The notes beneath the pieces were generated by a model. It was not told the DNA's origin and searched no databases. It saw only the letters and a list, made by a program, of their open reading frames with translations. A DNA stretch of 64,000 bases, taken from contig NZ_QYUK01000008.1 in the NCBI RefSeq assembly GCF_003590945.1, positions 496,001 to 560,000 of the forward strand. The letters are read 5' to 3'. Made by a program: the position numbers and the translations under genes. Positions 47,517 to 64,000 of this stretch are shown piece after piece. Numbering within the stretch: position 1 is the stretch's first letter; every line of letters begins with the position of its first letter. Source of the stretch: Oleomonas cavernae. GTDB taxonomy: Bacteria; Pseudomonadota; Alphaproteobacteria; Zavarziniales; Zavarziniaceae.

Positions 47517-47565
47517 TGCCGCCTCCCTTGACGGCCCCCAGCATGCATGGCCGCGCTGGCAACGG

Positions 47566-47583
47566 CCCCCCATCCGTGGGGGG
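47566..47583. promoter_or_regulatory. CCCCCCA-TCCG-TGGGGGG palindrome in a divergent promoter
   Basis: A perfect 7-bp inverted repeat with a four-base loop lies between the divergent DUF3237 and SDR genes. Its four-base spacing and GC-rich arms recall the TCCACC-N4-GGTGGA elements, but the arm sequence differs. It may be an operator for both genes. Confidence 0.4.
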
Positions 47584-47675
47584 TGCCGGCACCACCGCCC
47601 CGGCCGAGATTGGGATGCTGTGTGTTGCATCGCCGTCATGGGGCGGGCCAGCCAAGAACGGGAACGGAAACAATC

Positions 47676-48491
47676 ATGACGGACAGTACGAACAACCACC
47701 GTCTCGACGGCAAGGTCGCCCTGATCACCGGTGCTGCCCGCGGCCTGGGCGCCGAGACCGCCAGGGTTCTGGCGGCGGCCGGGGCAACGGTGGTCCTCAC
47801 CGACATTCGCGACGAACTGGGCCAGGCGACCGCGGCCCAGCTCGCGGCCGACGGCGCCACGACCAAATTCCTGCACCAGGACAGCAGTCTCGAGGCCGAT
47901 TGGGTGCAGGCCATCGATGCCACGATCAAGGCCTTCGGCGGGCTGGACATCGTCGTCAACAATGCTGGCATCGAGGCTGTCTGTCCCATCGTCGACACCA
48001 CGGTCGAGACGTTCGAGCGCATCATGCGGGTGAATTCCACCGGCGTGTTCCTCGGCATCAAGCAGGCGATCCTGGCCATGCGCCCGGGCGGCGGCGCCGG
48101 CCACGGCGGCTCGATCATCAACCTGTCGTCGATTGCCGGCCTGCGCGGCTTCCCCGGCTTCTTCGCCTATTGCGCCTCCAAGGGCGCGGTGCGCCTGATG
48201 ACCAAATCCGCGGCGGTCGAATGCGCCAACCTCGGCTATGGCATCCGGGTCAATTCGATCCATCCCGGCCTGATCATGACCGACATGGGCCATGCCGCCG
48301 TCGATGGCCTGGTCGCCATCGGTTTCGTGCCCGACGCCCAGACCGCCTCGACCACCTTCGATGCCCGACAGGCCTTAGGGCTGGGCCGCCCCGCCGATAT
48401 CGCCGAAGCCGTGCTGTTCCTGGCCAGCGACGCCGCCGGCTGGATCACCGGTGTCGAACTGTCGGTCGACGGTGGTTTCGCGGCGAGTTGA
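47676..48491 (+). CDS. Short-chain dehydrogenase/reductase (SDR)
   Basis: This 271-residue classical SDR has TGAARGLGAETA (residues 18-29), NNAGIEA, catalytic Ser in LSSIAG and YCASK, and the C-terminal DGGFAAS end. It resembles the 3-alpha/beta-hydroxysteroid and cyclohexanol dehydrogenase group, though that is weak evidence of substrate. ATG 47676 is the family start. It is divergent from the DUF3237 gene. Confidence 0.86.
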   Translation: MTDSTNNHRLDGKVALITGAARGLGAETARVLAAAGATVVLTDIRDELGQATAAQLAADGATTKFLHQDSSLEADWVQAIDATIKAFGGLDIVVNNAGIEAVCPIVDTTVETFERIMRVNSTGVFLGIKQAILAMRPGGGAGHGGSIINLSSIAGLRGFPGFFAYCASKGAVRLMTKSAAVECANLGYGIRVNSIHPGLIMTDMGHAAVDGLVAIGFVPDAQTASTTFDARQALGLGRPADIAEAVLFLASDAAGWITGVELSVDGGFAAS

Positions 48492-48538: not shown

Positions 48539-49915
48539 TCATGACCCGTGGCGGACCATGGCGCTCTGGGTCAGGAAGCGGTCATAGGAGTCGGGATCGT
48601 TGGTCACCGTCTCGTAGCCGCCGGTGATCTTCTTCACCTGCTGCAGGCGGGTGATGCGGTTGGTCTGGATGTTGTGGGCATGGACATGGGTCCAGGACCA
48701 GTAGGGATGCGCCCCGTCCATGACCGATTTGCCGCCCTCGTCATAGAGCGAGAAGGCGCCGTCGAAGGAGCGGAAGGCCTTGCCCTGCCGATCGAAGCTG
48801 ATCATGCCGATGGGCAGCATGGTGCGCAGGTCGAAGGTCACCTGCTTCTTCGAGATCGGCGCCCGCGGGAACATCACCGGTTCCGCCTCGATCGTCACCG
48901 CTTCCGGCACCAGCTCGACCGCGGTATCCCAGAACGACTGGCCCTTGGCCCCGCCATGGACGCCGCGTTCCCAATTGGGCTGATCCGCCATCCAGTTGCG
49001 CGACAGCGCGGCCAGGGCCGGGCCGCGGGCGACGATCTTGTAGTTGCCCCAGGTCAGGAACGGATCGCCGGCGGCCCAGGCGTCCGACAGGTAGAGGTCG
49101 GAGCCCGGGATCAGCGGCTCGAAGCGCTGGTTGGTGGGGTAGCGGCGGATGCGCTTGAAACCCGGCAGGTAGCCATAGAGTTCGGGGAACTGGGTCTGGT
49201 CGTAGGGCCAGATATTGAGGAAGGCCGTGCCCTTCACATTGTTGGGCCAGGGGAAAATGATCGACTGGTAGCGCAGCTTGTCCTCGTGGCCCGGCAAATA
49301 GGGCTTGGGCTCCAGCACCACCCGCCCCACCGGCGCCATTTCGACCCACAGGGATTCGTAGAGATAGGCGACGGTGCCGTCGGGATCGAGGTCGTATTCC
49401 TTGATCGCATAGTTGGAAATATCGTGCCGGCCCCAGCTCAAGGTCAGGCCGGCGAAGACTTCCAGCGCCGTCTTGGCCTCGGGGAACGGGTTGCCGCCGA
49501 TCCACGGCTTGCCCTCCCGGGTGACGACATTGCCGGTCGTATCGAACTGGGCCTGGCCCTTGTTGCGCAGGGTCGCCTCGAGATACTCCCACGGGCTCAA
49601 CTTCATGATCTCGGTCGTCGCCGGCACCACTTTCAGGCGGCGGCCCATCTCCTTGATCTGGACATAGCGGATGGGATCGAGCAGATCGCGGACAAGATCC
49701 ACGTTGTCGGCCGTGATCTCGTGCCCCGTGGCGATCTTGCCCTTGGTGTAGGCATCGATCGACAGCAGCTCGTCGGGATAGGCCGCGGCGGCCGTGCCCC
49801 GTGCCGCGATGGTCGCCCACAACGGCGCCAGGACACCGGCGGCGAGGATACCCCTCGCCGCCTGGCCCAGAAAGTGACGGCGGGAAAAGCCGTGATCGTA
49901 CTTGATGACATGCAT
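48539..49915 (-). CDS. DUF1329 family protein, Tat-exported (copy A)
   Basis: This 458-residue protein has a twin-arginine signal (SRRHFLGQAARG) with cleavage near TAAAAY, then a DUF1329 domain (PWIGGNPFPEAKTA, LSWGRHD, PTNQRFEPLIPGSDLYLSDA). DUF1329 proteins have a LolA/LppX-like lipid-carrier fold and sit beside DUF1302 and RND genes. It is expected to carry a hydrophobic molecule in the periplasm. It is closely similar to the protein at 56270-57646. It is the last gene of the envelope module. Confidence 0.84.
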   Translation of the reverse strand: MHVIKYDHGFSRRHFLGQAARGILAAGVLAPLWATIAARGTAAAAYPDELLSIDAYTKGKIATGHEITADNVDLVRDLLDPIRYVQIKEMGRRLKVVPATTEIMKLSPWEYLEATLRNKGQAQFDTTGNVVTREGKPWIGGNPFPEAKTALEVFAGLTLSWGRHDISNYAIKEYDLDPDGTVAYLYESLWVEMAPVGRVVLEPKPYLPGHEDKLRYQSIIFPWPNNVKGTAFLNIWPYDQTQFPELYGYLPGFKRIRRYPTNQRFEPLIPGSDLYLSDAWAAGDPFLTWGNYKIVARGPALAALSRNWMADQPNWERGVHGGAKGQSFWDTAVELVPEAVTIEAEPVMFPRAPISKKQVTFDLRTMLPIGMISFDRQGKAFRSFDGAFSLYDEGGKSVMDGAHPYWSWTHVHAHNIQTNRITRLQQVKKITGGYETVTNDPDSYDRFLTQSAMVRHGS

Positions 49916-49933
49916 GCCCCGCCCCCAAGCCTG

Positions 49934-51712
49934 TCAGAACTGACGCGTGACGCGCAGGAAAGCCTCGCTGGCGAAGTCGAGGGTCGAGAGCGCGTTCTTG
50001 TTGTCGTCCGACGCCGTGATGATCGACGAGTAGAGATCGACCTGCCAGGCATCGTCCGGCTTCCACTTCACACCCGGCTGGAACAGGGCCCCGCCACGCA
50101 GATCGTAGAGCACGGTCAGGTCGAACCGCCATTCCAGCGTGGGCGACGGCTGCTGAATCGCCAGGGCGAAGGCGTTATAGCCATCGACACCGGTAGGATC
50201 CCGTTCGGCGGTGCCACCATAACCGTCCAGATTACGCCCAAATAGGTCGCTTTCGGACTTGTGGAGATACTGAAACACCATGTACGTTGCAGGGAATTCA
50301 TCGGTGAAGCGGTAGTACTTCTCGAGCACCAAGGCCAAGGTCCATTCGTCGCTCTCGATGGGCCTTTGCGACAGAGACGGACTGGTGAATTTCTTGTCCG
50401 GCGTATAGGACATTTCGATCCGCGCGATGAGCTGATCGAAAAGCGTGTCGGGCTCGTCCTCGAAGACGTAGTTGGCCCCGAAACCAAAGACGTTTTCGTA
50501 AGGATAGATCCGTTCGATATGGCCGCGCAGGCCGCCGGACAGGGCAAAAAACGTGTCGAGTTCCTGACCGGCCAAGGCATGATTGTTGCCGGCGTTGAAA
50601 GCGCCGAGCAGGCCCGTGAACGGCTGGAAATCATCCACCGCGGCGTTCAACCCGGCGGTGCCGTTGAGCCGGACCATGGTCGCATAGTCGAACCATTCCT
50701 GTGCCGACAGGACACCGTTGATGGGATCGACCTGGAACGGCGTTTCCGCCAGGACGGCGCCCGAACCCGGCAAGCCCGGCAGATCGGCACTGCCGCCTGA
50801 TTTTGTCCAGCGATAGATACCATCCGGGTTGCGCCGGCTGGTCGCCATGAACTGTACGCCCAGCGGCCCCATCTGGCCACGCAGACGGCCGCCAACATTC
50901 CACGACCCATCGACCTCGTGATAGCGATCATGGACGGTGAACTGGTCCGGGATCACGTTGTACGGTGTCGACGGATTGGCATTGATCGACGGGTTGAACT
51001 GCTGGACGAAGGCATCGATCTCCCAATTGTCGGTCACCTGGTAGGAGGTCCGTATGCCCAGGGCCGGCACCCGCTTGTCCGAGAATTCCTCGGCCGCCGG
51101 ATCGAGGATCAGATGGCGGCGAAGGTCGAGGCCGTTGGGCACGTCGAGAACGCGGAAGAAGATCGACTCGCCCCAGGCAATCTGCTGATTGCCGGCCCGG
51201 ATGAACAGCGGCCCGTTGGAATAGTCGAGATAGGCCGCCGGCAGATCGACCATATAGTCGTTGTCATTGATTTCCAGCAAGGAACCCCGATCATCACCAC
51301 GGATCGGCGCTTCGAAGAAACTGGTGTCGCCGTTGTCGTCGTAGACATTCCAGTCGTAGTAGCCGCGCAGGGTAAAATGCGCCTTGAGATCCGGCGAGAA
51401 GGCCGCGTCGAGGTTTAGTTCCAGCCGCGTCGCAAACAGGTTGAAATCGTTGTCCGTGCTGCGGGCCGCCCGGGTCGCCGTCGTCGGCAGGCCGGCGATC
51501 AGCGGATTCAGCGCCACGGTGACGCCGTTGTACTTGTTGCCCTGGGTATTGAAGGGATTCTCGTCGCCCGAGATCCCCGCTGCCACCTCCTGTCGCACAA
51601 AGCCCGAAAACGAGATGTCGACCGCTCTCGCCGACATCACCGGTGCGACCACCACGGTCGCGCCTAAGGCGATGCTCCACCATCTGTTGCTGCCATTGCC
51701 CCTATCCCTCAT
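49934..51712 (-). CDS. DUF1302 family outer-membrane protein (copy A)
   Basis: This 592-residue protein has a signal peptide (cleavage near SARAVD) and a DUF1302 beta-rich body (FSGFVRQEVAAG, GNQQIAWGESIFFRVLDVPN, NPDGIYRWTKSGG), ending in the terminal Phe (RVTRQF) typical of outer-membrane barrels. It probably forms an outer-membrane channel or receptor for a hydrophobic compound. It is a close paralogue of the protein at 53386. ATG 51712 follows AAGGGAG. It lies 26 bp after the 507-residue protein. Confidence 0.84.
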   Translation of the reverse strand: MRDRGNGSNRWWSIALGATVVVAPVMSARAVDISFSGFVRQEVAAGISGDENPFNTQGNKYNGVTVALNPLIAGLPTTATRAARSTDNDFNLFATRLELNLDAAFSPDLKAHFTLRGYYDWNVYDDNGDTSFFEAPIRGDDRGSLLEINDNDYMVDLPAAYLDYSNGPLFIRAGNQQIAWGESIFFRVLDVPNGLDLRRHLILDPAAEEFSDKRVPALGIRTSYQVTDNWEIDAFVQQFNPSINANPSTPYNVIPDQFTVHDRYHEVDGSWNVGGRLRGQMGPLGVQFMATSRRNPDGIYRWTKSGGSADLPGLPGSGAVLAETPFQVDPINGVLSAQEWFDYATMVRLNGTAGLNAAVDDFQPFTGLLGAFNAGNNHALAGQELDTFFALSGGLRGHIERIYPYENVFGFGANYVFEDEPDTLFDQLIARIEMSYTPDKKFTSPSLSQRPIESDEWTLALVLEKYYRFTDEFPATYMVFQYLHKSESDLFGRNLDGYGGTAERDPTGVDGYNAFALAIQQPSPTLEWRFDLTVLYDLRGGALFQPGVKWKPDDAWQVDLYSSIITASDDNKNALSTLDFASEAFLRVTRQF

Positions 51713-51738
51713 GCTTGTCGCTCCCTTTGTTGTTCTAC

Positions 51739-53262
51739 TCACTCAACAAGACCACCCAGCACCCCGCGCAGCAGGCCGCCGATCATCGGCACATCGGCAA
51801 ACGGCCCCATGGGACCGATGGCGTCCGCCAGCGGCGCCAACTCGCCCAGCAGGGGGCCGCCCGTGGCGTTCTCGATCGAACCGCCCAGCAGGCCGCCCAC
51901 CAGGCTCAAGGTCGTCTCGGTCTTGGCATCGGCACCGCCCGCCAGGAACGAGCCGGTCACGGCACCCAGCAGGTCACCCACCAACGGCACACCGGTCAGT
52001 GGCCCGCCGACAGCCAGGAAGCCGCCGCTGGCAGTCCCCAGCCCGTCGCCCAGGGTGGCGACGACCGGATTCAACGCCTCGCCCAAGGTCTCCAGCGGTG
52101 CGGCCAGGGCGCTGGTCAGGGGACCCAGCGGCCCGCTATCGATGGCGGTCGCGGCATTGAGCTGCGAGGTCAAGGGGGCTAGCACGCCGCCGGCGGGATC
52201 GACCAGGCTTTGCACCAGGCCGGTAACCGGCTCCAGCGCGGTCTGGCTGCCGAGATCGCCCAGCAGCGTGTCGACCGAATCGATCAGGCCTTCGCCCGCC
52301 ACCCCACTGCCGCCGAGCGCTGATGCCGTGCTGCCCGATGCCGTGCTGGACGATGCCGCGCTGCTCGCGCCGGCCGCATCGCCCTCGCCGGGCGACAGGC
52401 TGCCGAAGCCGTCGTTGTCGCCATTGAGCGCGCCGGCCGCCTGGGCGATCTGGCGCAGGCCGAAGCCCGGATCGCTGGTGATGAAATTGGGCCGCGTGCC
52501 GTAGCGATGACGCTCGAACAGGGTCGGGCCGTCCGACGCCTGCTTGGTGCGGTCGGTGGCGAGCAGATCATCGCCCGCGTTGAAATAGAAGCGCACGCCG
52601 GCGACGCCCAGGGCGCCGTCGTCGTCGAACACGCCGGTGGCATAGAGCGACAGGCCGGGGGAATTGCCCAGCAGGGCCTCGACCTGGACATCGCCGGCCC
52701 ATTCGCTGACCTCGTCATAGCGCACGCCGGCGCCCAGGCGCAGGTTGGGCGTGGCATAGACCGACAAGCCGGCCCGGCCGTACCAGCTGTCGGCAATATC
52801 GCCGCCCTGGTACCCGACCATGCCCTCGAGCGTGATCGTGTCGAGATAGAATTCGGCAAAGCCTGCGACCGCGTATTGCGACACGGAGTCGAGGGCGTAG
52901 CCGCCGCCGGCGATGCCGACCGAGAAACGCTGCGGGTCGCGATAGAACAGCTGCAGGGCGCCGCCGCCAAAGCCGGTATCGCCCCCCGCCACGCCGGCGA
53001 TGGCATCGGCCTGCAGGCCGCCGCGATCGCCCAGGGGGATGGCGATACTGCCGGCACCGCCGTAGATCGCGCCGTTGTCGTCGCCGCCGCCGAAGCCTTC
53101 GAGCACGAAACTGGTGCCCGCTACCGCGACCGGGCCGCCATCCTGGCCGGCGCTCGCCGACACGGGCTCGGCATCCTGGCCAAGGCCAAGACCTGCCGCG
53201 GCGCTGGCCGAGACCAGCACCGCCGAACCCAGCAGCAGGTTTGTCATCCGCATTGCACTCAT
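51739..53262 (-). CDS. Unrecognised exported protein with barrel-like N-terminus and Gly/Leu-rich tail
   Basis: This 507-residue protein is not recognised as a named family. It has a signal peptide (ending about residue 25). Residues 45-235 are rich in alternating Gly/aromatic beta-strand-like segments (GFGGGALQLFYRDPQRFSVG, GVRFYFNAG), like a small outer-membrane barrel. A Ser/Ala linker (about 300-320) follows. A tail of about 180 residues repeats short hydrophobic Gly-Pro-Leu units (LTSALAAPLETLGEAL, GGLLGG, GPLLGEL), like helical surface repeats. It sits between the two DUF1302 genes and is probably an outer-membrane or surface part of the module. ATG 53262 follows GGGGG. Confidence 0.7.
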   Translation of the reverse strand: MSAMRMTNLLLGSAVLVSASAAAGLGLGQDAEPVSASAGQDGGPVAVAGTSFVLEGFGGGDDNGAIYGGAGSIAIPLGDRGGLQADAIAGVAGGDTGFGGGALQLFYRDPQRFSVGIAGGGYALDSVSQYAVAGFAEFYLDTITLEGMVGYQGGDIADSWYGRAGLSVYATPNLRLGAGVRYDEVSEWAGDVQVEALLGNSPGLSLYATGVFDDDGALGVAGVRFYFNAGDDLLATDRTKQASDGPTLFERHRYGTRPNFITSDPGFGLRQIAQAAGALNGDNDGFGSLSPGEGDAAGASSAASSSTASGSTASALGGSGVAGEGLIDSVDTLLGDLGSQTALEPVTGLVQSLVDPAGGVLAPLTSQLNAATAIDSGPLGPLTSALAAPLETLGEALNPVVATLGDGLGTASGGFLAVGGPLTGVPLVGDLLGAVTGSFLAGGADAKTETTLSLVGGLLGGSIENATGGPLLGELAPLADAIGPMGPFADVPMIGGLLRGVLGGLVE

Positions 53263-53326
53263 GAGCCACACCCCCTGTTTGCCGCCTCTTGCCGTCGCGT
53301 CAGCCGCCCCTCACCCCGAAAAGATC

Positions 53327-53380
53327 GGGAGGGCGAACGGGGTTACGCACCGTCCGCCCTCCCCGAGTTGTCCGGGGGAG
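53327..53380. other. Overlapping mutually exclusive hairpins
   Basis: GGGAGGGCG (53327-53335) can pair with CGCCCTCCC (53355-53363). CTCCCC (53359-53364) can instead pair with GGGGAG (53375-53380). The two stems share bases, so only one can form. They lie between the DUF1302 gene (copy B) and the 507-residue gene. They could tune expression between the two; this is only inferred. Confidence 0.4.
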
Positions 53381-53385
53381 CCGGA

Positions 53386-55197
53386 TCAAAACTGATAACT
53401 GACACGCAGAAAGACCTCGTCGGCGTATTCGATGCTGGACAGCGCGTTCTTGTTGTCGTCGTCGGCAACCACAAAGGTGCCGTAGAGATCGACCCCGACC
53501 TTGTCGTTGGGGCGCCAGCGAATGCCGGGCTGGATCAGCACCCCGCCCTCGATGTCGTAGAGCACCGCGAGATCGGCCCGCCAGATCAGGTTGGGGAACG
53601 GCTGCTGGGCGGCAAAGGCAACGGCGGTATAGCTGTCGATGCCGTCCGGCGTGTGGTTGACCGAGCCGCCGAAGCCGCTGAGCGCCCGGCCGAAGATGTC
53701 GGACTGGGACTTGTGCAGGGCTTGCAGGACCATGTAGGTCGCCGGGAAGTCGTCGAAGAAGCGCTGATACTTCTCGAAGATCAGGGCCATAGTGTATTCA
53801 TCCTTCTCGATGAATTCCTGGCCCAGGGTGATGTTGGTGAACTTCTTGTCCGGCGTATAGGTCATCTCGAAGCGGGTGATGAGCTGGTCGAAGATGGTGT
53901 CCGGCTCGCCCGAGAAAACATAGTTGATGCCGAAACCGAAGACGTTCTCCTGCGGATAGACCCGCTCGATATGGCCCCGCAGGCCGCCCGACAGGGCGAA
54001 GAACAGGTCCAGCTCGGTCTCGGCCAGCATCATGTTGTTGCCGACATTGAAGGCCAGCAGGTTGCCGGTGGCGGGCTGGAAATCGTCGATGGCGGCATTG
54101 AGGCCCTGGGTGCCGTCCAGGCGGACGTCACCCGCGTAATCATACCATTCCCGGGAGGAATGCACGCCGGTCGGATCGACCTCGAAGGGGGTATCCTTCA
54201 GGCTGTTGCCGCTACCGGGAATGACCGGGATGTCACGATTGACGCCCGATTTCGTCCAGCGGAAGACACCGTCGGGATTGCGGCGGTTGACGGCGATGAA
54301 TTGCAGGCCGATGTCGCCCAACTGGCCGCGGATGCGACCGCCGACATTCCACATGTTGTCGACCGCATCATAGCCTTCGCGCTGATGCACGGTGAACTGA
54401 TCGGGGATGATGTTGTAGGGCGTGTTGGGGTTGGGCAGGATGGACGGGTTGAACTTCTGAACGAAGGCTTCCAGCTCCCACTCGTCCGTCACCTGATAGG
54501 AGGCGCGAATGCCGAGGCCAGGAACGCGCTTGTCGGAATATTCCTCGCCCGCCGGATCCAGCACCAGGTGGCGGCGCAGATCGAGGCCGTTGGTGACGTC
54601 CAGGACGCGGAAGAAGATCGCCTCGCCCCAGGCAATCTGCTGATTGCCCACCCGGATGAACAGGGGGCCGGTGGCATAGTCGACATAGGCATCGGGGAAA
54701 TCGACCATGAAATTCTGGCCGGTGACCTCGAGCGGCGTGCCGCGGTTACCGGTGAACGGCACTTCGAAGAAGTTGGGATCGCCGTAGTTCTCATAGAGGC
54801 CGGTGTCCCAGAAGGCCCGCAGGCGCACGGTCGCGCTGAGGTCGTCGGTGAACTTGGCGCCGAAATTGAGCTCGAGCCGCGTCGCCAGCATGTTGAGGGC
54901 GTTGCTGTCGCTCTTGATCTTGCGCTCGCCCGTCGCCAGATCGACGGGCAACAGGCCCAGAACCGGCGCCGGGACGAGGCCCAGCAGCGGCCCGATCGAG
55001 TGCGGGAACAGGGGCACGGGGACATTGTTGTAAGGGTTGCCCCCCTGGTTGTTCTGGTTCTCCTGGCCACTGACCTTGAACGCGATCTCTTCCCGGATGA
55101 AACCGGAGAACGAGAAATCGACACCGAGCGCCGGCGTCATCATGCCGATCGCAGCGCCCCCTGCCATCAGCTTGTAAAGGAGTTTCTTCTCCCGCAT
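53386..55197 (-). CDS. DUF1302 family outer-membrane protein (copy B)
   Basis: This 603-residue protein has a signal peptide (MREKKLLYKLMAGGAAIGMM, cleavage near TPALGVD) and the DUF1302 body (FSGFIREEIAFK, GNQQIAWGEAIFFRVLDVTN, NPDGVFRWTKSG), ending RVSYQF. It is a paralogue of the protein at 49934 along its full length. It is probably an outer-membrane channel or receptor for a hydrophobic substrate. The YCF48-like gene is just upstream (48-bp gap). Confidence 0.85.
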   Translation of the reverse strand: MREKKLLYKLMAGGAAIGMMTPALGVDFSFSGFIREEIAFKVSGQENQNNQGGNPYNNVPVPLFPHSIGPLLGLVPAPVLGLLPVDLATGERKIKSDSNALNMLATRLELNFGAKFTDDLSATVRLRAFWDTGLYENYGDPNFFEVPFTGNRGTPLEVTGQNFMVDFPDAYVDYATGPLFIRVGNQQIAWGEAIFFRVLDVTNGLDLRRHLVLDPAGEEYSDKRVPGLGIRASYQVTDEWELEAFVQKFNPSILPNPNTPYNIIPDQFTVHQREGYDAVDNMWNVGGRIRGQLGDIGLQFIAVNRRNPDGVFRWTKSGVNRDIPVIPGSGNSLKDTPFEVDPTGVHSSREWYDYAGDVRLDGTQGLNAAIDDFQPATGNLLAFNVGNNMMLAETELDLFFALSGGLRGHIERVYPQENVFGFGINYVFSGEPDTIFDQLITRFEMTYTPDKKFTNITLGQEFIEKDEYTMALIFEKYQRFFDDFPATYMVLQALHKSQSDIFGRALSGFGGSVNHTPDGIDSYTAVAFAAQQPFPNLIWRADLAVLYDIEGGVLIQPGIRWRPNDKVGVDLYGTFVVADDDNKNALSSIEYADEVFLRVSYQF

Positions 55198-55245
55198 GTG
55201 CCCCTCCCCAATGTCAATCCATTCTGGACTTCGACAATTTCCACG

Positions 55246-56211
55246 TTATGGCGCGAGTTCGACGATCCGCCCCCTGTGACCGGTGACAATCCATTGCGTG
55301 TTGCCGCCGGCGGCAACGCCCTGATACCAGGTGGTCGCGACATCGCCGGGGGTGGCGACGGCCCAGTCGGACCCGCCTTTGGTGCCACGCAACAGGGCCC
55401 GCATGCCGGTTACCAGCACCGCCCCGTCATCCCTGATTTTCACCCCCAGCAGGTTGACCTGGGTCGGGGTCCGTTCCGCCGCCCAGCTTGCCCCGCCATC
55501 GCTGGTACGCAGGACGGTGCCCTTTTGCCCCACCGCGTAACCTATCCCATCGCGACCGATCGCCAGATCGAACAGCGAGGCCTCGCCGCTGTGCGCGGCA
55601 CTCCAGGTCGCACCGCCATCGGTGGAGCGCAGGATCAACTCGAACTCGCCAACCACGGTGATCGCGCCGGCGTCATCGACCGTCACGCCGTAGAGATGCG
55701 GCTCCAGCCCTTCGGGGTTGAAGGCCGCCCAGTCGATGGCGACCTGGGTCCAACTCTTGCCGCCGTCGCCCGAGCGCAGCACGGTACCGAAGGCACCGAC
55801 CGCCACGGCCTGGCCGCTGGCATTCAGGTCGATATCGAACAGCCGGCTGGTCGAGCCGCTGGCGATCGCAGTCCAGGCGGTTTGCCCCTTCTCGCGGCGC
55901 AGGATAGTGCCGGCCTGGCCGACCACCAGGCCGACGCCCTGCTTCAGCGAGCAGCCCAGCAGGGCCGAGACGGTCAAGCCGTGCTCGACCTTGTGCCAGC
56001 CGTGGCCGCCGTCATTGCTCTCGAACAACAGGGCCGGGGCACCGACCGCCAGGGCCTCCTTGCCCTGGACATCGATGCAATAGACCGCCTCATGGGCCGT
56101 GCCCGCGCGCAGGACGTCGAGTGTCGTGGCCGGCGGCGCGCCGGCGGTTGCAACCGAGGCAGCCAGGACCGCCGCAGCCGATGCCGCCAGAAGGCTTGTC
56201 AAACGTGTCAT
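55246..56211 (-). CDS. YCF48-like/BNR-repeat beta-propeller protein, exported
   Basis: This 321-residue protein has a signal peptide (cleavage near TAGAP) and repeated BNR/YCF48 units (GTVLRSGDGGKSWTQV, ILRSTDGGATWSAA, TVLRTSDGGASWAA), spaced about 40 residues, forming a beta-propeller. In photosynthetic organisms such proteins help assemble photosystem II; here it is found with RND, DUF1302 and DUF1329 genes, a recurrent envelope set. Its role is probably as a periplasmic scaffold or partner of the RND exporter. It lies between DUF1329 copy B and DUF1302 copy B. Confidence 0.84.
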   Translation of the reverse strand: MTRLTSLLAASAAAVLAASVATAGAPPATTLDVLRAGTAHEAVYCIDVQGKEALAVGAPALLFESNDGGHGWHKVEHGLTVSALLGCSLKQGVGLVVGQAGTILRREKGQTAWTAIASGSTSRLFDIDLNASGQAVAVGAFGTVLRSGDGGKSWTQVAIDWAAFNPEGLEPHLYGVTVDDAGAITVVGEFELILRSTDGGATWSAAHSGEASLFDLAIGRDGIGYAVGQKGTVLRTSDGGASWAAERTPTQVNLLGVKIRDDGAVLVTGMRALLRGTKGGSDWAVATPGDVATTWYQGVAAGGNTQWIVTGHRGRIVELAP

Positions 56212-56269
56212 ATCGTTTCCGTTCCCCTGAGATCGCCGGCAGCAATGCGCTGCCGGCGACCAAGCCCGA

Positions 56270-57646
56270 TCAGGCGCCCAGGCGCCGCACCGCCTGGATG
56301 GTCAGGAACTTGTCGTAGAGACTGCCCTGGTTCCAAGACGAGTTGTAGCCGCCGGTGATGCTCTTGGCCTGGACGAACCGGCTCATGCGGTTCGACTGGA
56401 TGTCGTGGCTGTGGACATGGGTCCACGACCAGCCGGGGTTCTTGCCGTCCATGACGACGTTGCTGGCCGTCTTGTACTGGCTGAAGCCGGGCTCGAAGGA
56501 TTTCCAGATTTCGCCGCGCCGGTCATAGGTGACATAGGCCACGAACATCATGTTGCGGACGTCGATCCAGACCCGCTTCTTGCCCACCGGCGAGCGCGGA
56601 TAGCCGACCGGCTCGGCCTCGACCACCATCACCTCGGGGATCAGCTCCATGTAGGTGTCGAAGAAGGTCTCGCCCTTCGGCCCGCCATGGACCTTGCGCT
56701 CCCAGTTGGGATCGTCGCCCATCCAGTTCTGCGAGACCGAACCCAGGTGCGGCTTGCTGCCGATCACCTTGTAGTTGCCCCAGGTCAGCATGGGGTCGCC
56801 CGCCGCCCAGGCGTCCGACAGGAAGATGGTGATGCCGGGCACCAGCGGCTCGAAGCGCTGGTTGGTGGGGAACCGGCGCTCGCGCTTGAAGGCGGGGAGA
56901 TAGCCGAACAGGTCGGGGAACTTGGCCTGGTCGTAATACCAGGTGTTGACGAAGGAGGTCCCCTTGACGTCGTTGGGGCCGATGAAGAACACCGACTGGT
57001 AACGCAGCTTGTCCTCGTGGCCTGCCCAATAGGGGCCGTCGGGATTGTTGACCAGGCAGGTCGTGTTCTGTTCGGCCCAGCAGAAATCATACTGGTAGGA
57101 GGTGGTGCCGCCGGGCGAAATGTCCCAGTCGCGCACGGCGTAGAAGGACTGATCGTGGCGGCCCCAGCTTAAGGTCAGGTTGGCGAAGGCTTCCACGCCG
57201 TCCTTGGGCTCGGGGAACGGGTTGCCGCCGATCCACGGCTTGCCGTCGGCGTTGAAGGTATTGCCCGAACCGTCCAGCTTGGCCTTGCCCTTGTTCTTCA
57301 GGGTGGCTTCCAGATATTCGTGCGGGAACAGCTTGGTCACGTCGCTGGTGGTCTCCACCAGGGTGATGCGCCGGCCCATTTCCTTCACCTGGCGGTAGGC
57401 GATGGGGTCGAGCAGGTCCTTCACGATATCGACATTGTCGGCGGTGAGCACGTCGCCGGGCTTCAGCTTGCCCTTGGTATAGGCGCTGATCGAGCGCAGT
57501 TCTTCAGGGTAGGCGGTCGTGGCGTCGCCCGATTTGGCGATGGTCGGCCACAGCGGGGCGAGCACGCCGGCACCGACGATGCCCTTGGCCGCGCGCTCCA
57601 GAAACAGGCGCCTGGAGTAGTCGAAGTCGTATTTCTTAATGTGCAT
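56270..57646 (-). CDS. DUF1329 family protein, Tat-exported (copy B)
   Basis: This 458-residue protein begins MHIKKYDFDYSRRLFLERAA, a twin-arginine signal, and has the DUF1329 body (PWIGGNPFPEPKDG, LSWGRHD, PTNQRFEPLVPGITIFLSDA). It is a close paralogue of copy A. It probably carries a hydrophobic molecule in the periplasm between the RND exporter and the DUF1302 outer-membrane protein. ATG 57646 follows GGGAGGA. It lies 29 bp after the RND gene. Confidence 0.85.
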   Translation of the reverse strand: MHIKKYDFDYSRRLFLERAAKGIVGAGVLAPLWPTIAKSGDATTAYPEELRSISAYTKGKLKPGDVLTADNVDIVKDLLDPIAYRQVKEMGRRITLVETTSDVTKLFPHEYLEATLKNKGKAKLDGSGNTFNADGKPWIGGNPFPEPKDGVEAFANLTLSWGRHDQSFYAVRDWDISPGGTTSYQYDFCWAEQNTTCLVNNPDGPYWAGHEDKLRYQSVFFIGPNDVKGTSFVNTWYYDQAKFPDLFGYLPAFKRERRFPTNQRFEPLVPGITIFLSDAWAAGDPMLTWGNYKVIGSKPHLGSVSQNWMGDDPNWERKVHGGPKGETFFDTYMELIPEVMVVEAEPVGYPRSPVGKKRVWIDVRNMMFVAYVTYDRRGEIWKSFEPGFSQYKTASNVVMDGKNPGWSWTHVHSHDIQSNRMSRFVQAKSITGGYNSSWNQGSLYDKFLTIQAVRRLGA

Positions 57647-57675
57647 GGTTACAGTCCTCCCTGAGCGTTGCTTCG

Positions 57676-60114
57676 TCACTGGGCCGCGGCCAGCGTCGAC
57701 AGTTCTTTTTCGTCAACCGTATAGGCGGAAAGATCGACCCCCTCGCCGACCAGCAGGTCGTCGCGGGTCATGAACTGGGGCTTCACCAGCCAGACCAGCA
57801 GGGGCACCACGATCAGTGCGATGACCATGTTGATCAGCATGACCATGACCAGCAGCAGGCCCATGTCGGCCAGGAACTTCAGTTCCGACAGGAAGTACCA
57901 GGGCAGGATGCCCAGCAGCATGATGGTGGCGGTGAAGAAGATCGCCTTGCCGGTGGTGGCAACCGAGGCGAGGATCGCCGTGTCATATTCCTTGTGGCCC
58001 TGGAATTCCTCGCAGATCCGGCTGAGCAGGTAGATGCCGTAATCGATGCCGACACCGATGCCGATCGCGGTGATCGGCAGGCTGTTGATGTCGAGGCCGA
58101 TGCCCATTTCGACCATGACCGCGGTCAGGAAGAAGTTGGACAGGTTCACGGGCACCAGCAGCATCAGGCCGGCAACGATCGAGCGATAGGCAAAGGCGCA
58201 GCTCACGAACATCGCCAGGTTCAGCAGGCCCAGAATGATCCAGTGGTAGTGCTCGACCGCGTCGTTGACCGACTGTTGCAGGGCGATGGTGCCGGTGGCG
58301 AGGCGGATGCGGAAATCCGGGTGGTCGGAGCCGACAAAGTCGACCGCGGCCTGGGCCTGGGCAATCGCCTGGTCGACCGTTTCCTGTTTGTTGTCCTTGT
58401 ACCACAGCGAGACAGTCGAATTCTGCTGCTCGAAATCGGTTACATGGAGGAAGGCCTTGGGGCTGGTGCCCACCATCAACGCCCCTACCGCGGCGCCCAC
58501 GGAGGCATCGTCGGGATCGAGCGGCGACCATTTCGGGTTGCCGCCGGCGAACAGGCGATTGGCCTCGGGCAGGTAATCGGCGAAGGCCAGGGTGGCGACC
58601 GGCGGTTTCTCCTGCTGTTCCAGGAAATATTCGATGCGGGCCATGGTCGCGATGGTTTCGGCCTGGCGCGCCACCCGGTTGGGATTGATCGGATTCTTGG
58701 CCTCAAGCACGATTTCGAGCGTGTTCAAGCCCGGAAAGTGATCGTTGATCTGGGCGACCGCCGTGTTGAACTGGCTGTTTTCCCACAACAGGTTGCTGCC
58801 CTCGACCGGGTTGCCGATCTTCACATGGGCGGTCTGCCAGATGCTGAAGGCGGCGACGATCAGCACGGCGACGGTGGTGAAGCGTGCCCGCTTGCCGAAG
58901 GTCCAGGTGGAGAGGCCGCGCAGCAGGTTGCGGATCATCACATGGACCCCGCGGTCGCCGTCACGCCCGGTGATCTTCAGGATGTTGCGCGGCGTCGGCA
59001 GGTAGGACAGCAGCAGGGGCGTCAGGAAGATGTTGGTGGGCACCAGCATGAAGGCCCAGAAGCCGCAGAACAGGGCCAGGCGCTCCATCACCGGGATGGG
59101 TGCCACGGCGATCAGGCACAGGCCCACGGCATCGGTGACGATGCCCAGCGTGCCCGGCACCATCATCACGCTGAGCGCGATTTCGGCCGCCTTGGTCTTG
59201 TTCTTCACATGGTGAAGGATCTCGCAATAGCGCTCGATGAACTGCACGCAATGGCTGAACGAGCGCGCGACGTGGAGCAGCGGCACCACCATGATCAGCG
59301 GCTCGATCGGGATGTTCAACCAGCCGACGAAGCCAAAGCCCCACAGGGCGGCGATCGTGCTCGCACCCAGGGGCACGACGACACCGATGATGTTCCGCAT
59401 GTAGACGATCAGGCACAGGATCAGCGCGCAGACCGTGGCCGCGAAGATGAACAGCATCTGGTGTTCATAGTGATAGACCCAGCCGGTCAGGGCCGGCTGG
59501 CCCGCCATGTAGACCTCGTGGTTGGCGTCGCGGTTACGCTCCACCAAGCCTTGCATGTATTCGAAGGTGGCGCCGTAATCGAGCAGGCGTTCGATGAAGG
59601 TGACGGTGATGATGGTCGCCGTCTCGTCGTCGGAGATCAGGAAGGCGCGGGCGTTGGGCGCCATGTCCACGCGGCGGCGGAATTCGTCGATATCGGCCTG
59701 GGTGGTAGGCACGGTATCGCCCATGATCGGCTGGGTATCGATGCCGTCCGGCACCGCTTCGGCATAACGCGCCTTCTCGGTGGTGATCGACAGGACCTGG
59801 TCGTGGTCGACCGCGGGCGCCAGATCGGCCTCGCGGGTCATGTTCCAGACCTTTTGCAGGGTATCGATATTATAGATCGTGCCGGTCTTGCGCTTGACCA
59901 TCAGGGTGATGGTCAGCGGGTTGCCGAAGTTGGGGTGATCCTTGAAGGTCTGGACGTAAGGGTGGTCCGACGGCAGCAGGTCGGAGAAGATCGTGCGCAG
60001 CTCGACATTGCGCAGGCCCAGGCCCAGGAAGATCGTAATCCCGATCATTACGGCGACGGACAGCAGGCGGTTCTGCATCACGAATTGCGCGATGGAATGG
60101 CGGGTGATCTTCAC
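57676..60114 (-). CDS. RND superfamily transporter, MMPL type
   Basis: This 812-residue inner-membrane protein has the two-fold RND layout: a first membrane helix (residues about 15-35), a large periplasmic loop, five helices (about 235-400), a second loop and six helices (about 620-790). The second set contains PITAIGIGVGIDYGIYLLSRI, the conserved RND segment with the proton-relay Asp (D in GIDYGI). MMPL proteins move lipids, sterols or hopanoids. The start is GTG 60114 after AAGGGAG; the frame extends to 60162. It is the first gene of the envelope module. Confidence 0.86.
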   Translation of the reverse strand: MKITRHSIAQFVMQNRLLSVAVMIGITIFLGLGLRNVELRTIFSDLLPSDHPYVQTFKDHPNFGNPLTITLMVKRKTGTIYNIDTLQKVWNMTREADLAPAVDHDQVLSITTEKARYAEAVPDGIDTQPIMGDTVPTTQADIDEFRRRVDMAPNARAFLISDDETATIITVTFIERLLDYGATFEYMQGLVERNRDANHEVYMAGQPALTGWVYHYEHQMLFIFAATVCALILCLIVYMRNIIGVVVPLGASTIAALWGFGFVGWLNIPIEPLIMVVPLLHVARSFSHCVQFIERYCEILHHVKNKTKAAEIALSVMMVPGTLGIVTDAVGLCLIAVAPIPVMERLALFCGFWAFMLVPTNIFLTPLLLSYLPTPRNILKITGRDGDRGVHVMIRNLLRGLSTWTFGKRARFTTVAVLIVAAFSIWQTAHVKIGNPVEGSNLLWENSQFNTAVAQINDHFPGLNTLEIVLEAKNPINPNRVARQAETIATMARIEYFLEQQEKPPVATLAFADYLPEANRLFAGGNPKWSPLDPDDASVGAAVGALMVGTSPKAFLHVTDFEQQNSTVSLWYKDNKQETVDQAIAQAQAAVDFVGSDHPDFRIRLATGTIALQQSVNDAVEHYHWIILGLLNLAMFVSCAFAYRSIVAGLMLLVPVNLSNFFLTAVMVEMGIGLDINSLPITAIGIGVGIDYGIYLLSRICEEFQGHKEYDTAILASVATTGKAIFFTATIMLLGILPWYFLSELKFLADMGLLLVMVMLINMVIALIVVPLLVWLVKPQFMTRDDLLVGEGVDLSAYTVDEKELSTLAAAQ

Positions 60115-60267
60115 TGGACTGAGCTCCCTTCCGCAGCGAGCTGCCGGCGCCCGCTGGAGCATGTAACCTGCTCGACGATGTCCGTTGCAGTGGCGAGGGC
60201 GTACCTCGCCGTGGCGGCATGACTGCCGACCCGACGCCTCATTGCGTTTCCCCCGTCGCAGGTGCCG

Positions 60268-60473: not shown

Positions 60474-63239
60474 CTAGAGCACGCGGGCGCGGCGGGCCTG
60501 GCGCACCGCTTGGGTGCGGGTGTTGGCGCCAAGCTTCAGGAAGATCTGCTTGACGTACCATTTTACCGTTTCCGGCGCGATCGCCAGCGCCGCGGCAATT
60601 TCCTTGTTGGTCAGCCCTTCGGCCATGCAACTGAGCACTTCGCGTTCGCGCGCGGTCAGTTGCTGGTAGAGGCTCTGATCGCTCTCGGCCTCGCCCTGCA
60701 GCACGGCCATGCGTTCGGGCAGGATGCGCGTCGGCCGGCCGACCTCGGTAAAGTTCACCACCTCGGCACGCTTGGCGCCGGTGTCGCCGCGGCCTTGCAG
60801 AAGTTCGGCCGCAAAGGCCTTCTCCTCGGGCGACAGGCCGGCAGCATCGAGGCCGGTCTGCAACGCCTTGAGCAGGGGCAGGACATAGATCCGCTGATCC
60901 TGGAACGCGCGGCGGTATCGCTTGGGCAAGGCCATCGACAACGCGGCCTGGAACACCCCCACCGCCTCATCCTGGCTGCCCGTCGACCACAGCGCGCTGG
61001 CCAGCAGGATGCGCCCGGTCACCTGGTCGCCGAAACGATCGAATTCTTCGGCTTCGGCCAGGTAATTCTGCAGGAAGCCCAGGCTGCGCTTGGCCTCGCC
61101 CAGCATCAGGTCGGCCCGCGCCTCGCCCAGGCGGATGATCTCGTTGGTGAGGGTGACCGCGGTGCGGCCCAGTGCCGGATTCTCGGCCTGGCGCAGCGCC
61201 TGCAAACGATTGGTCCAGTGACGCACCTGGCGCCAGTCGTTGGCCAGCAGGGCAAGATGCAGGCGCTCGGCCAGGCAACCGGCCACGATACGGGCAAAGC
61301 CCAGGCGATTGGCGATCGCCTCCAGCCGGTCCAGCCGCTCCAGCGCCCGCTTCATGTCACCATCGGCGACATGGACCTTGACCAGCGAGATCGCCCCGCG
61401 CGCGCTAAAGCTCGGCGGTGTGCGTGAACAGGCGATGTCGAACCGTCCCGCCAAGACCTTCTGCGCGCCCAGGAGATCGTCCTGATCGTAAAGCAACCCG
61501 GAAAGACACGAGGCCGGCAAGGCCGCCGGCACCGAACGGCGGCCGCCGATTTCCTCGCCCCGGCGCAGCGCCATCTCGTAATGTTCCCGCGCCTTGTCGA
61601 ACTCGCCACGCTGCTCGTGGGCGGTGCCGATGCAGCAATCGGCATAGATCATGGTGAAGTGGCTGCGCTCCGCCATGGGCCAGGATTCGCCGATCAACTG
61701 CGCCTCAAGCGCACGGTCGAATTCGCCCCGGATGTTGCGGTTGTAGGTGACCACATTGGCCAGCGCGCCGATCTTGAACTGGTCGTTGCGCGGCCCGTTG
61801 GCCAGCCATTCCTCGGCCACCTGCAGGCCTTCGCCGCGATCGTTCAGCGTGTAGTAGGCGGCCTTCACCGCCTGCAATTCCCACCGCACCGTGTCGTCCG
61901 GCTGGGGACGTTCGGCCAGCGCCTTCTCCACCTCGGCGATGGCGGCCCCCGCCTCGTCCATGCGCATCGACAGGCTCAACGCCCAGATGACATCGACCGC
62001 CAGGTCCAGACGTTTGGCGAAGGCTTCCTTGGGCAGCCGTTCGTACCAGCTCATCAGCAGCAGGATCTGGGCGCTTTCCACCATGCGCCGCGACTGGCGC
62101 GCGATGAGCTGAATCGCCCAGGTCGAATCGCCTTCCTCGATCGCGTGGTGGATCGCCTCGGAAATCGCCTCGCGAGCGGAAAACCACTGTGCCGCCCGGC
62201 GATGCAGACCGACGAACTCGTCATGGGCCAGCAGCTTCACCTCGCCGGCCAGGAATTCGCGCAGCAGGGGATGCAGCCGGGCCCAGCCTTCCGCCCCCTC
62301 CAGGGGAATGATGAAGGGCACCTCCTCGACCAGGCGGGCAATCCGCGCCGCCGAATCCGCCCGTTCCAGCACCTCGTCGCACAGGGCCGGACAGAAGCGC
62401 GAGAAGATCGAAATGCGCACCAGCCAGCGGCGATCCTCCTCGTCAATCTGGCGAAACACGGTGTCGCGGATGTAATCGGTGATTTCCTTGGTCTGGCCGC
62501 AGAAGGTCTCGACGAATTCCGAGACGTTCTTCTTGCGCGCCAGCGACTGGCTGGCCAGGCACAGGCCGGCGACCCAGCCCTCGGTCGCCTGGTTCAGCGT
62601 GTCGATGTCGGTCAGGCGCAGCAGGTCGTGGCCGCGCAGGCGGAAAAACTCGATGGCTTCCGAAATGTCGAAGCGCATCTCGGCGATATCGGTTTCCTGC
62701 ACCCGGCCCTGGACCTTCAGCCGCGACAGGCCCAGCCGGATGGCGGGCCGGCCGGCCAGCACGAAATGCAGGTTGGGCGGCGCGTAATGGATCAGGTCAT
62801 AGAGGATCGACAGCGCCGCGGGGGCATTGAGATCATGCACGTCGTCGAGGAAGACATAGATATCGTCGCTGAGCTGCTGCACCTCGTTGACGATGAAGCC
62901 GGCGACCAGATTGGGCGCAAGGTTGCCCGAGGCGGAGAGAAACGAGGTCGTCACCGCGCGATCGTTCTCGAACGCCTGGTCGAGCGCGCCCAGCAGGTAG
63001 CTGAGCAATTGCGCCGGCTCGTTGTCGTGTTCGTCGAGGCTGAGCCAGGCGACCCGGCTGCCGTCGAACAGCAGGCGTTTGCGCCAGTCGGCCAGCAGGG
63101 TGGTCTTGCCGAAGCCGGCGGGCGCGCGCACCAGCGTCACCGAATAGGCGGGCAGGTGCTCGAAATAATCTTCGAGGTTTTTCCTACGCACGAGGTTGGT
63201 CAACAGACTCGGCGGCAGAAATTTGGTCCTGACGAGCAT
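60474..63239 (-). CDS. MalT/LAL-type ATP-dependent LuxR regulator
   Basis: This 921-residue protein has an N-terminal STAND ATPase domain (Walker A APAGFGKTT, residues 39-47; WLSLDEHDN; DIYVFLDDVHDL as Walker B), a long central helical/TPR-like region, and a C-terminal LuxR helix-turn-helix (LTAREREVLSCMAEGLTNKE, then PETVKWYVKQIFLKLGANTR). Such regulators are activated by ligand and ATP, then assemble on DNA. Its position just upstream of the RND-DUF1329-DUF1302 module in the same direction suggests it controls that module. ATG 63239 follows GGGG. Confidence 0.88.
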   Translation of the reverse strand: MLVRTKFLPPSLLTNLVRRKNLEDYFEHLPAYSVTLVRAPAGFGKTTLLADWRKRLLFDGSRVAWLSLDEHDNEPAQLLSYLLGALDQAFENDRAVTTSFLSASGNLAPNLVAGFIVNEVQQLSDDIYVFLDDVHDLNAPAALSILYDLIHYAPPNLHFVLAGRPAIRLGLSRLKVQGRVQETDIAEMRFDISEAIEFFRLRGHDLLRLTDIDTLNQATEGWVAGLCLASQSLARKKNVSEFVETFCGQTKEITDYIRDTVFRQIDEEDRRWLVRISIFSRFCPALCDEVLERADSAARIARLVEEVPFIIPLEGAEGWARLHPLLREFLAGEVKLLAHDEFVGLHRRAAQWFSAREAISEAIHHAIEEGDSTWAIQLIARQSRRMVESAQILLLMSWYERLPKEAFAKRLDLAVDVIWALSLSMRMDEAGAAIAEVEKALAERPQPDDTVRWELQAVKAAYYTLNDRGEGLQVAEEWLANGPRNDQFKIGALANVVTYNRNIRGEFDRALEAQLIGESWPMAERSHFTMIYADCCIGTAHEQRGEFDKAREHYEMALRRGEEIGGRRSVPAALPASCLSGLLYDQDDLLGAQKVLAGRFDIACSRTPPSFSARGAISLVKVHVADGDMKRALERLDRLEAIANRLGFARIVAGCLAERLHLALLANDWRQVRHWTNRLQALRQAENPALGRTAVTLTNEIIRLGEARADLMLGEAKRSLGFLQNYLAEAEEFDRFGDQVTGRILLASALWSTGSQDEAVGVFQAALSMALPKRYRRAFQDQRIYVLPLLKALQTGLDAAGLSPEEKAFAAELLQGRGDTGAKRAEVVNFTEVGRPTRILPERMAVLQGEAESDQSLYQQLTAREREVLSCMAEGLTNKEIAAALAIAPETVKWYVKQIFLKLGANTRTQAVRQARRARVL

Positions 63240-63439: not shown

Positions 63440-64000
63440 CTATGCAACAGCCGTGCGCTGCCGCCGCTGCGCCAGCGCAATATACCAATCCAGCGCCGGC
63501 GGATTGGTCATGGCGTCCCGGCTGGCGGCCTTGTCCGGCGCCCATCCCATCAGGATCTTGCGCACCGGGATCTCCATTTTCTTGCCCGTCAGGGTATAGG
63601 GCACGTCCGGCACCTGGTGGATTTCATCGGGGACGTGGCGCGGGCTGCAATCGGCGCGCAACTTGGCATTGATCGCCAGGCGAACACTATCGGTCAGATC
63701 GCATCCCGGCTTCAGCTTGACGAACAAGGGCATGTAGAAGTTTCCGCCCGGCAGTTCGCAGCACACGATCAGGCTGTCGAGCACCTCGTCGACCTGCTCG
63801 ACCGCCCGGTAGATTTCGGCCGTGCCGATGCGCACACCGTAGCGGTTCAGGGTCGAGTCCGAACGGCCATAGATGTAGCAGCCGCCGCGACCATTGATCT
63901 TGATGAAATCGCCGTGGCGCCACACGCCGGGGAACACATCGAAATAGGATTCGTGATAGCGCTTGCCCTTGGTGTCGCCCCAGAAAAAGATCGGCATCGA
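63440..64000 (-). CDS. Acetoacetyl-CoA synthetase-like protein, partial (C-terminal part)
   Basis: The 186 residues visible are the C-terminal part of an adenylate-forming enzyme. GVWRHGDFIKINGRGGCYIYGRSDSTLNRYGVRIGT holds the A7-A8 motifs, and the catalytic lysine is in LTGKKMEIPVRKIL. The phrase NRYGVRIGTAEIYRAVE is typical of acetoacetate-CoA ligases. The gene runs off the right edge of the window, so its start is not seen. It would activate acetoacetate, a product of the BKACE enzyme at 21817, but the distance makes a direct link uncertain. Confidence 0.82.
   Translation of the reverse strand, partial: SMPIFFWGDTKGKRYHESYFDVFPGVWRHGDFIKINGRGGCYIYGRSDSTLNRYGVRIGTAEIYRAVEQVDEVLDSLIVCCELPGGNFYMPLFVKLKPGCDLTDSVRLAINAKLRADCSPRHVPDEIHQVPDVPYTLTGKKMEIPVRKILMGWAPDKAASRDAMTNPPALDWYIALAQRRQRTAVA

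Follow-up and report, generated by a model that had tools for sequence, protein, structure and literature searches.

An RND-DUF1329-YCF48-DUF1302 operon of Oleomonas cavernae as a candidate periplasmic shuttle for a hydrophobic substrate, beside an Apc-like operon

A likely seven-gene operon of Oleomonas cavernae may encode an energised shuttle that moves a hydrophobic catabolic substrate through the periplasm. The operon lies in the window studied here, a stretch of 64,000 nucleotides on contig NZ_QYUK01000008.1 (positions 496,001 to 560,000), and it encodes an RND transporter, two DUF1329 proteins, a YCF48 propeller, two DUF1302 proteins and an accessory protein. The source assembly measures 5.64 Mb in 29 contigs and is 96.3% complete with 3.5% contamination. 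We give an even chance to the proposal that these proteins form such a shuttle and that here it serves the adjoining ketone pathway, in which case its cargo would be a ketone or a ketone precursor.

In the proposed scheme, DUF1302 would form a channel of porin type in the outer membrane. The two DUF1329 proteins, which carry twin-arginine translocation (Tat)-type signals, would shuttle in the manner of lipid carriers; the gene of one adjoins the pump gene and that of the other closes the cassette. YCF48 would be the periplasmic partner of the RND transporter, which would use the proton gradient to load or unload the carriers at the inner membrane. In the neighbouring pathway, ApcABCD-like enzymes would turn a ketone into a beta-keto acid, and an enzyme of the acetoacetate--CoA-ligase type would then activate it with coenzyme A (CoA); an alcohol-to-ketone step may come before.

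The operon and its relatives

All seven open reading frames (ORFs) are present on the minus strand, running from 60162 to 48539, and GC content by codon position selects every one of them as a gene. The first encodes the HAE3-like RND/MMPL transporter (57676..60162; 828 amino acids; MMPL 2.2e-27, 96 bits), whose start may instead lie at 60114. It is followed by DUF1329a (56270..57679; DUF1329 3.5e-67, 228 bits), a LolA-like carrier candidate with a Tat-type signal, by the YCF48/BNR propeller (55246..56211; PSII_BNR 2.6e-20, YCF48 73 bits), likely a periplasmic RND partner, and by DUF1302a, a predicted outer-membrane barrel (53386..55197; DUF1302 1.3e-34, 121 bits). Then come the 510-amino-acid accessory protein (51739..53271), a second predicted barrel, DUF1302b (49934..51742; DUF1302 1.4e-41, 144 bits), and a second carrier candidate with a Tat-type signal, DUF1329b (48539..49915; DUF1329 6.2e-51, 174 bits). 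In transcription order the intergenic gaps are -4, 58, 48, 114, -4 and 18 bp, the 4-bp overlaps joining DUF1329a to the RND gene and DUF1302b to the gene of the 510-amino-acid protein. Spacing this tight makes a single operon likely. Six of the seven proteins score above the Pfam cut-offs for MMPL, DUF1329, YCF48 or DUF1302 domains, which bears out the gene set and location of the original prediction; at E 0.001 neither Pfam nor NCBIfam matches the 510-amino-acid protein.

The arrangement recurs in other genomes. Related loci were collected with an alignment of eight RND proteins as the query, and the best 80 of 190 confirmed matches were named; these 80 loci are kin to each other, and some genomes contribute two. 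DUF1329 proteins were labelled a or b by their phmmer scores against the two window proteins (difference above 40 bits), with a check on a 57-row tree. Cassette order was counted in the 58 named loci that have at least 8.5 kb downstream of the RND gene. The five-gene order RND-1329a-YCF48-1302-1329b occurs in 28 of these, and so the arrangement is not due to chance. RND-1329a-YCF48-1302 is found in 12 and RND-YCF48-1302 in eight, while the remaining 10 differ or are incomplete. Counted singly, YCF48 is present in 55 of the 58 and DUF1302 in 56; 43 have an a-type DUF1329, 32 a b-type and four one that is unassigned. Some of the eight RND-YCF48-1302 loci, along with others, have a further DUF1329 behind an ExbB-VWA module.

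That module, which comprises ExbB, VWA and an unknown gene (c7), lies downstream of DUF1302 in L066, L084, L087, L100, L101, L104, L112, L123, L124, L127 and L138; DUF1329 follows it in several loci, and it is possibly an added energising unit. In Zavarzinia marina, a gene resembling Old Yellow Enzyme (L063:18219-19502; read from its translation, without a domain search) occupies the expected DUF1329b site. Among 385 genomes drawn from the same class, six have a window-type RND at E 1e-120, four of them Zavarzinia. Viral contigs scanned with the RND alignment yielded 29 stretches, none of which was confirmed.

Transporters of this kind have been described before, and the original prediction's statement that their function is not established was too strong, although mechanism and direction are unsettled in the published systems too. 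According to the available text of PMC6394551, AmeABCD of Castellaniella defragrans consists of DUF1302, DUF1329, COG4447 (YCF48-like) and HAE3-type RND proteins encoded in a monoterpene-catabolism island. Deletion of ameABCD reduces growth on non-functionalised monoterpenes and makes cells less tolerant of monoterpenes; Nile Red accumulates slightly more, while its efflux kinetics are almost identical with and without AmeABCD (PMC6394551). The window cassette has the same four kinds of part, its RND being a candidate for the HAE3 type, with the DUF1302, DUF1329 and YCF48 partners clustered. AmeABCD is ordered 1302-1329-COG4447-RND, whereas the window begins with RND and continues 1329a-YCF48-1302 and on; because the A-B-C-D order is absent, we regard the cassette as the same kind of system, yet not AmeABCD proper. 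The window also differs from AmeABCD, as far as that text describes it, in its two distinct DUF1329 proteins, second DUF1302, extra protein and Apc-like neighbour pathway.

A second relative is the Pseudomonas putida set PP_0765, PP_0766, PP_2018 and PP_2019, which the available text of PMC10866462 describes as a DUF1302, a DUF1329, a periplasmic protein and a multidrug efflux transporter that are essential on Tween 20, with contacts suggested by co-folding. Its locus numbers imply two separate sites and that text discusses one DUF1329, whereas the window has one operon with two. We take PP_2019 to be of RND type. The third is the benzene 'Nanopod' cluster of ORM2a, with a porin-like protein, a DUF1329, a YCF48-related protein and an MMPL transporter, whose direction is left open in the available text of PMC13101534. 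Unlike the window, it belongs to an anaerobe, includes a universal stress protein and has no Apc link in that text, which also cites work in which a Delftia mutant lacking a DUF1329 gene had a growth defect on phenanthrene. Among the papers listed by a limited open-access literature search, none joins the cassette to acetophenone carboxylase or to copper membrane monooxygenase, judged by titles, abstract starts and term counts. The transporter family is already partly known; this analysis adds that its core has two carriers, that Apc and copper-monooxygenase genes occur in its neighbourhood, and that barrel-carrier pairs are in surplus, as described below.

Predicted parts and the direction of transport

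The RND protein has TIGR00921 (HAE3) as its best NCBIfam match (1e-37), at 129.6 bits against a cut-off of 351.9; its ACR_tran match of 23.8 bits also lies below the cut-off of 28. In an alignment of 101 RND proteins, Asp707 and Tyr708 of transmembrane segment 10 are kept in 95 of 96 lineage members, with one gap, and Arg300, Ser303 and His304 of segment 4 in all 96. Five distant RND paralogs of this genome keep the Asp-Tyr and Ser-His residues and lack the Arg. The Asp-Tyr pair is presumably a proton relay like that of MmpL-type pumps.

Both window DUF1329 proteins contain the motif SRRxFL. A simple script found an RR-type motif in 64 of 67 a-type, 41 of 43 b-type and four of six unassigned DUF1329 ORFs, counts in which some loci appear twice and one distant paralog is included as a-type. 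DUF1329a passes the cut-off of 30 for LolA_like (PF17131) with 34.5 bits and matches PDB 9tp6, 'Outer membrane lipoprotein-sorting protein', at E 2.4e-5; DUF1329b reaches 25.3 bits, below that cut-off. By sequence DUF1329a appears LolA-related and is a candidate carrier.

DUF1302a is modelled as a porin-like barrel (46 sequences; mean predicted local distance difference test, pLDDT, 88.6; predicted template modelling score 0.87). Foldseek alone placed general porins first, with modest TM-scores. After re-alignment the OprD family was best, with OpdK (2y2x) at Z 20.4 and a root-mean-square deviation (rmsd) of 3.5 over 314 aligned residues; AlgE (5iyu) came after the OprD-family chains (Z 18.7, rmsd 4.1, 325 aligned). 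The predicted fold is like that of OprD/Occ porins, but identity is about 10%, DUF1302a is longer, and in Pfam it matches DUF1302 and no OprD/Occ family. A shared porin-like fold would not by itself show function. A sequence search of the PDB with DUF1302a gave no match up to E 1, and genome contigs scanned with DUF1302a alone gave 21 stretches, none confirmed. FadL-type and TolC-type channels are absent from the 50 structural matches listed for the DUF1302a model, which does not exclude such likeness.

Among the operon proteins there is no Pfam match at E 0.001 to a membrane-fusion protein or a TolC-type duct, the components that distinguish an HAE1 tripartite pump of the AcrAB-TolC type. This result and the porin-like DUF1302a model speak against a TolC-like continuous conduit, which we reject. 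The trans-envelope set that had been predicted keeps its inner-membrane, periplasmic and outer-membrane parts, its probably hydrophobic cargo and its open direction.

This genome holds many copies of the barrel and the carrier, with 28 DUF1329 and 36 DUF1302 matches, fragments included. The pairing analysis used 27 and 30 of them, leaving out one and six pieces of broken genes respectively, and ten of the 13 RND matches found with the window RND, three being short or weak. Eighteen DUF1329 genes lie within 1 kb of a DUF1302 gene, and 15 of these pairs have no listed RND within 12 kb. YCF48 lies within 3 kb of seven of the ten RND matches. The 13 YCF48 matches merge into nine sites, and a listed RND is nearby at all but two. 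Some copies close to the ends of contig C11 have scores identical to those of inner copies, and an assembly repeat may add about one to the counts. Contig C10 (L028, 6.6 kb) carries two partial RND copies in opposite orientation, one with an internal TGA, either an assembly repeat or a rearrangement. The DUF1302 pieces at C2:2039-4445, with internal TGA stops, are likely a pseudogene.

The analogy with the sterol hand-off from NPC2 to NPC1 leads us to favour inward delivery slightly over outward. Two points speak against inward delivery: RND pumps usually export, and the authors of AmeABCD interpret it as an exporter (PMC6394551). We accordingly regard efflux for solvent tolerance as a serious possibility, though one short of even. 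The RND would draw its cargo, either the hydrophobic substrate or a toxic ketone, out of the inner membrane and pass it to the DUF1329 carriers and out through DUF1302, as proposed for AmeABCD. The lowered monoterpene tolerance and slightly raised Nile Red accumulation of the ameABCD mutant speak for this, HpnN of the HAE3 family moves hopanoids outward (PMC6394551, available text), and the NCBIfam models matched by the window RND, none of whose cut-offs it reaches, mostly bear the names of exporters. Against efflux stand the almost unchanged Nile Red kinetics, the resemblance of the DUF1302a barrel to OprD-type porins, and the 15 barrel-carrier pairs that lie more than 12 kb from any listed RND.

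The carboxylase neighbourhood

The catabolic part of the shuttle proposal rests on the genes upstream of the cassette. Genes like ApcA (71197-73005), ApcB (70751-71200), ApcC (68611-70746) and ApcD (66309-68579), all beyond the window, are followed by an acetoacetate--CoA-ligase-type gene that runs from 66235 into the window (3' part at 63440..64000). A MalT/LuxR-type regulator (60474..63239; TPR_MalT and GerE) separates the carboxylase and transporter operons, and all of these genes, from ApcA to the cassette, point in one direction on the minus strand. The sole Acetone_carb_G (small-subunit) match found in this assembly lies 10.7 kb upstream of the RND gene on the same strand.

Acetophenone carboxylase (Apc) of Aromatoleum (5l9w) is the best PDB match for all four subunits. 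The gene order is apcABCD, taken as a criterion from the available text of PMC5214803. The Apc fingerprint R/KERiDsxG appears as RERIDYKG in the ApcC-like protein and has no match in the ApcA-like one, and the ApcB-like protein has the cysteine pairs C25/C28 and C81/C84 plus C74. In the criteria of that paper the fingerprint marks Apc-alpha and is missing from Apc-alpha', and the small subunit has four conserved cysteines. Order, fingerprint and cysteines fit the Apc branch and agree with the Aromatoleum enzyme as that text presents it; in difference from it, no adjoining ApcE was seen.

On the other side of the cassette, convergent with the operon, is a short-chain dehydrogenase/reductase (SDR) gene on the plus strand (47547..48491; adh_short_C2 3.1e-57). 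Its best NCBIfam match, (R)-specific alcohol dehydrogenase, is below cut-off, and the broad glucose 1-dehydrogenase subfamily is above; a role in the alcohol-to-ketone step is a guess. A DUF3237 match at 47049-47500 (minus strand) forms the tail of a longer ORF, the front part of which runs across the SDR gene on the opposite strand.

In a survey of neighbourhoods, flanking ORFs of 89 loci were clustered and cluster representatives scanned against Pfam, and a stricter count was made on the 80 named loci. Hydantoinase/acetone-carboxylase-type, copper membrane monooxygenase (PmoC, PmoA/AmoA, PmoB, multicopper oxidase), thiolase, acyl-CoA and dehydrogenase genes occur near cassettes. Apc-type genes are found in 21 of the 80, all on the RND strand (14 upstream, seven downstream); judging by record titles, the 21 loci belong to Alpha- and Gammaproteobacteria. 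At least one flank falls short of 8.5 kb in 34 of the 80, and L111 and L128 are in the looser list only. Among the 46 loci that extend 8.5 kb in both directions, 16 have Apc genes, against an estimated baseline of about 1% or less of random 20-kb stretches (1-2 copies in 3-5 Mb) and at most about 5% in the richest genome, a comparison between related loci and not a formal test. A ligase-type gene occurs in nine of the 80, and in the six that also have Apc it is opposite to RND, unlike here; a MalT-type match of at least 150 bits occurs in ten.

PmoA and PmoB are present in eight of the 80. PmoC-PmoA-PmoB stands shortly upstream of RND, in its direction, in L071, L074, L078, L079, L082, L086, L103 and L114, and seven of the eight copper membrane monooxygenase loci also have a multicopper oxidase gene. 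L117 (titled a Klebsiella pneumoniae metagenome-assembled genome) and L083/L131 (Verrucomicrobia) have RND with Apc or regulator genes, under labels that look doubtful.

Several results weigh against the shuttle proposal. All four Apc-like subunits are below the NCBIfam equivalog cut-offs and the ligase is above those of both NCBIfam acetoacetate--CoA ligase models, so we call the neighbour enzyme Apc-like and leave its substrate open. Because the ligase passes that equivalog cut-off, the ketone could be a small one of modest hydrophobicity, for instance acetone. Among the 19 loci compared, none has a match to the window SDR or MalT-type regulator that spans half the protein. The strict Apc count leaves out 59 of the 80 named loci, and in three other Zavarzinia genomes the Acetone_carb_G gene lies away from the cassettes in the stretches covered.

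The carboxylase might be an accidental neighbour of a generic hydrophobic-compound transporter that has no dedicated pathway and could work in either direction. We consider this unlikely. The link appears in one of the four Zavarzinia genomes examined (this one), 59 loci fail the strict count, and the loci are interrelated, some genomes giving two; on the other hand, the 21 linked loci have Apc genes upstream or downstream in two proteobacterial classes by record title, and the small-subunit gene mostly has one or two copies per genome. Acetone_carb_G is absent from two of 30 genomes, single in 17, double in five, triple in two and present in four to fourteen copies in four, so that 22 genomes hold only one or two and six hold three to fourteen. 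Trafficking of an endogenous envelope lipid or hopanoid to the outer membrane, unrelated to catabolism, would suit the weak RND matches to the HpnN and BstA models and the LolA-like DUF1329a, but is very improbable given how often Apc, copper monooxygenase, thiolase and acyl-CoA ligase genes lie close to cassettes and the many DUF1329/DUF1302 copies in one genome, which suit varied substrates better than one housekeeping lipid.

History and meaning of the cassette

The gene order is nearly mirror-symmetric, as originally described, but its two halves differ in age. In the tree of 57 DUF1329 proteins, b-type proteins form a branch of 25 rows (support 88/99, below the 95 wanted) that spans Alpha- and Gammaproteobacteria, four of the 25 having nearly equal scores against the two window proteins; a-type rows are not united in one supported group. 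DUF1329a and DUF1329b are, by sequence comparison, old paralogs. In the tree of 28 DUF1302 proteins, both window copies, 61% identical to each other, fall within one 14-row group that is entirely Zavarzinia, this genome included (98/95). DUF1302b is the sister of another copy from this genome (L024; 100/100), and DUF1302a stands at the base of the group. The DUF1329 split runs across classes while the DUF1302 split lies inside the Zavarzinia branch; therefore the two carriers are older and the two barrels younger. These trees contradict the earlier description of a duplicated machine, and we reject one block duplication as the source of the mirror order.

The RND end of the operon may have a mixed ancestry of its own. 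The window RND is 84% identical to that of this genome's second cassette (L018) and 68% to that of Parvibaculum (L068), whereas DUF1329a is 63% identical to L018 and 75% to Parvibaculum. The cassette (56270-60162) looks like a mosaic, with an RND nearest Zavarzinia and a DUF1329a nearest Parvibaculum, and recombination or transfer may lie behind it.

The protein at the midpoint of the mirror is rare. Its profile gave eight ORF matches among the collected loci, seven of them distinct and all from Zavarzinia, this genome included; the other copies are five elsewhere in this genome, one in Z. marina (counted twice) and one in Z. aquatilis. The alignment shows a conserved first half with many predicted strands and a variable, repetitive tail; the model of the protein (pLDDT 33.7) is too weak to interpret. 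Since it occurs in just one of the 58 cassettes, a Zavarzinia one, we see it as an accessory and reject it as the machine centre. We can only guess that it may be a small barrel of the outer membrane.

The copy numbers suggest a wider idea, which we hold tentatively and think rather improbable in full. DUF1302-DUF1329 pairs may be exchangeable, substrate-specific barrel-plus-carrier modules that share a few RND-YCF48 engines. On this view the operon would be an engine to which a second barrel was added; the a and b carriers would share out the pump and barrel duties, and the Apc-linked cargo would be a ketone or a precursor of one. The idea arises because this genome has 15 remote barrel-carrier pairs against seven RND-YCF48 pairs, and it echoes the distant locus numbers of the P. 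putida set. It may be likened to the many TonB-dependent receptors served by one TonB.

How oily substrates cross the periplasm of Gram-negative bacteria is poorly understood, and this family recurs beside hydrocarbon-type catabolic genes while its parts are still DUFs. From the Apc neighbourhood come specific, inexpensive compounds to try as substrates, and the two carrier types imply a division of labour that can be tested. The excess of barrel-carrier pairs points to a modular design that may be comparable with that of TonB receptors.

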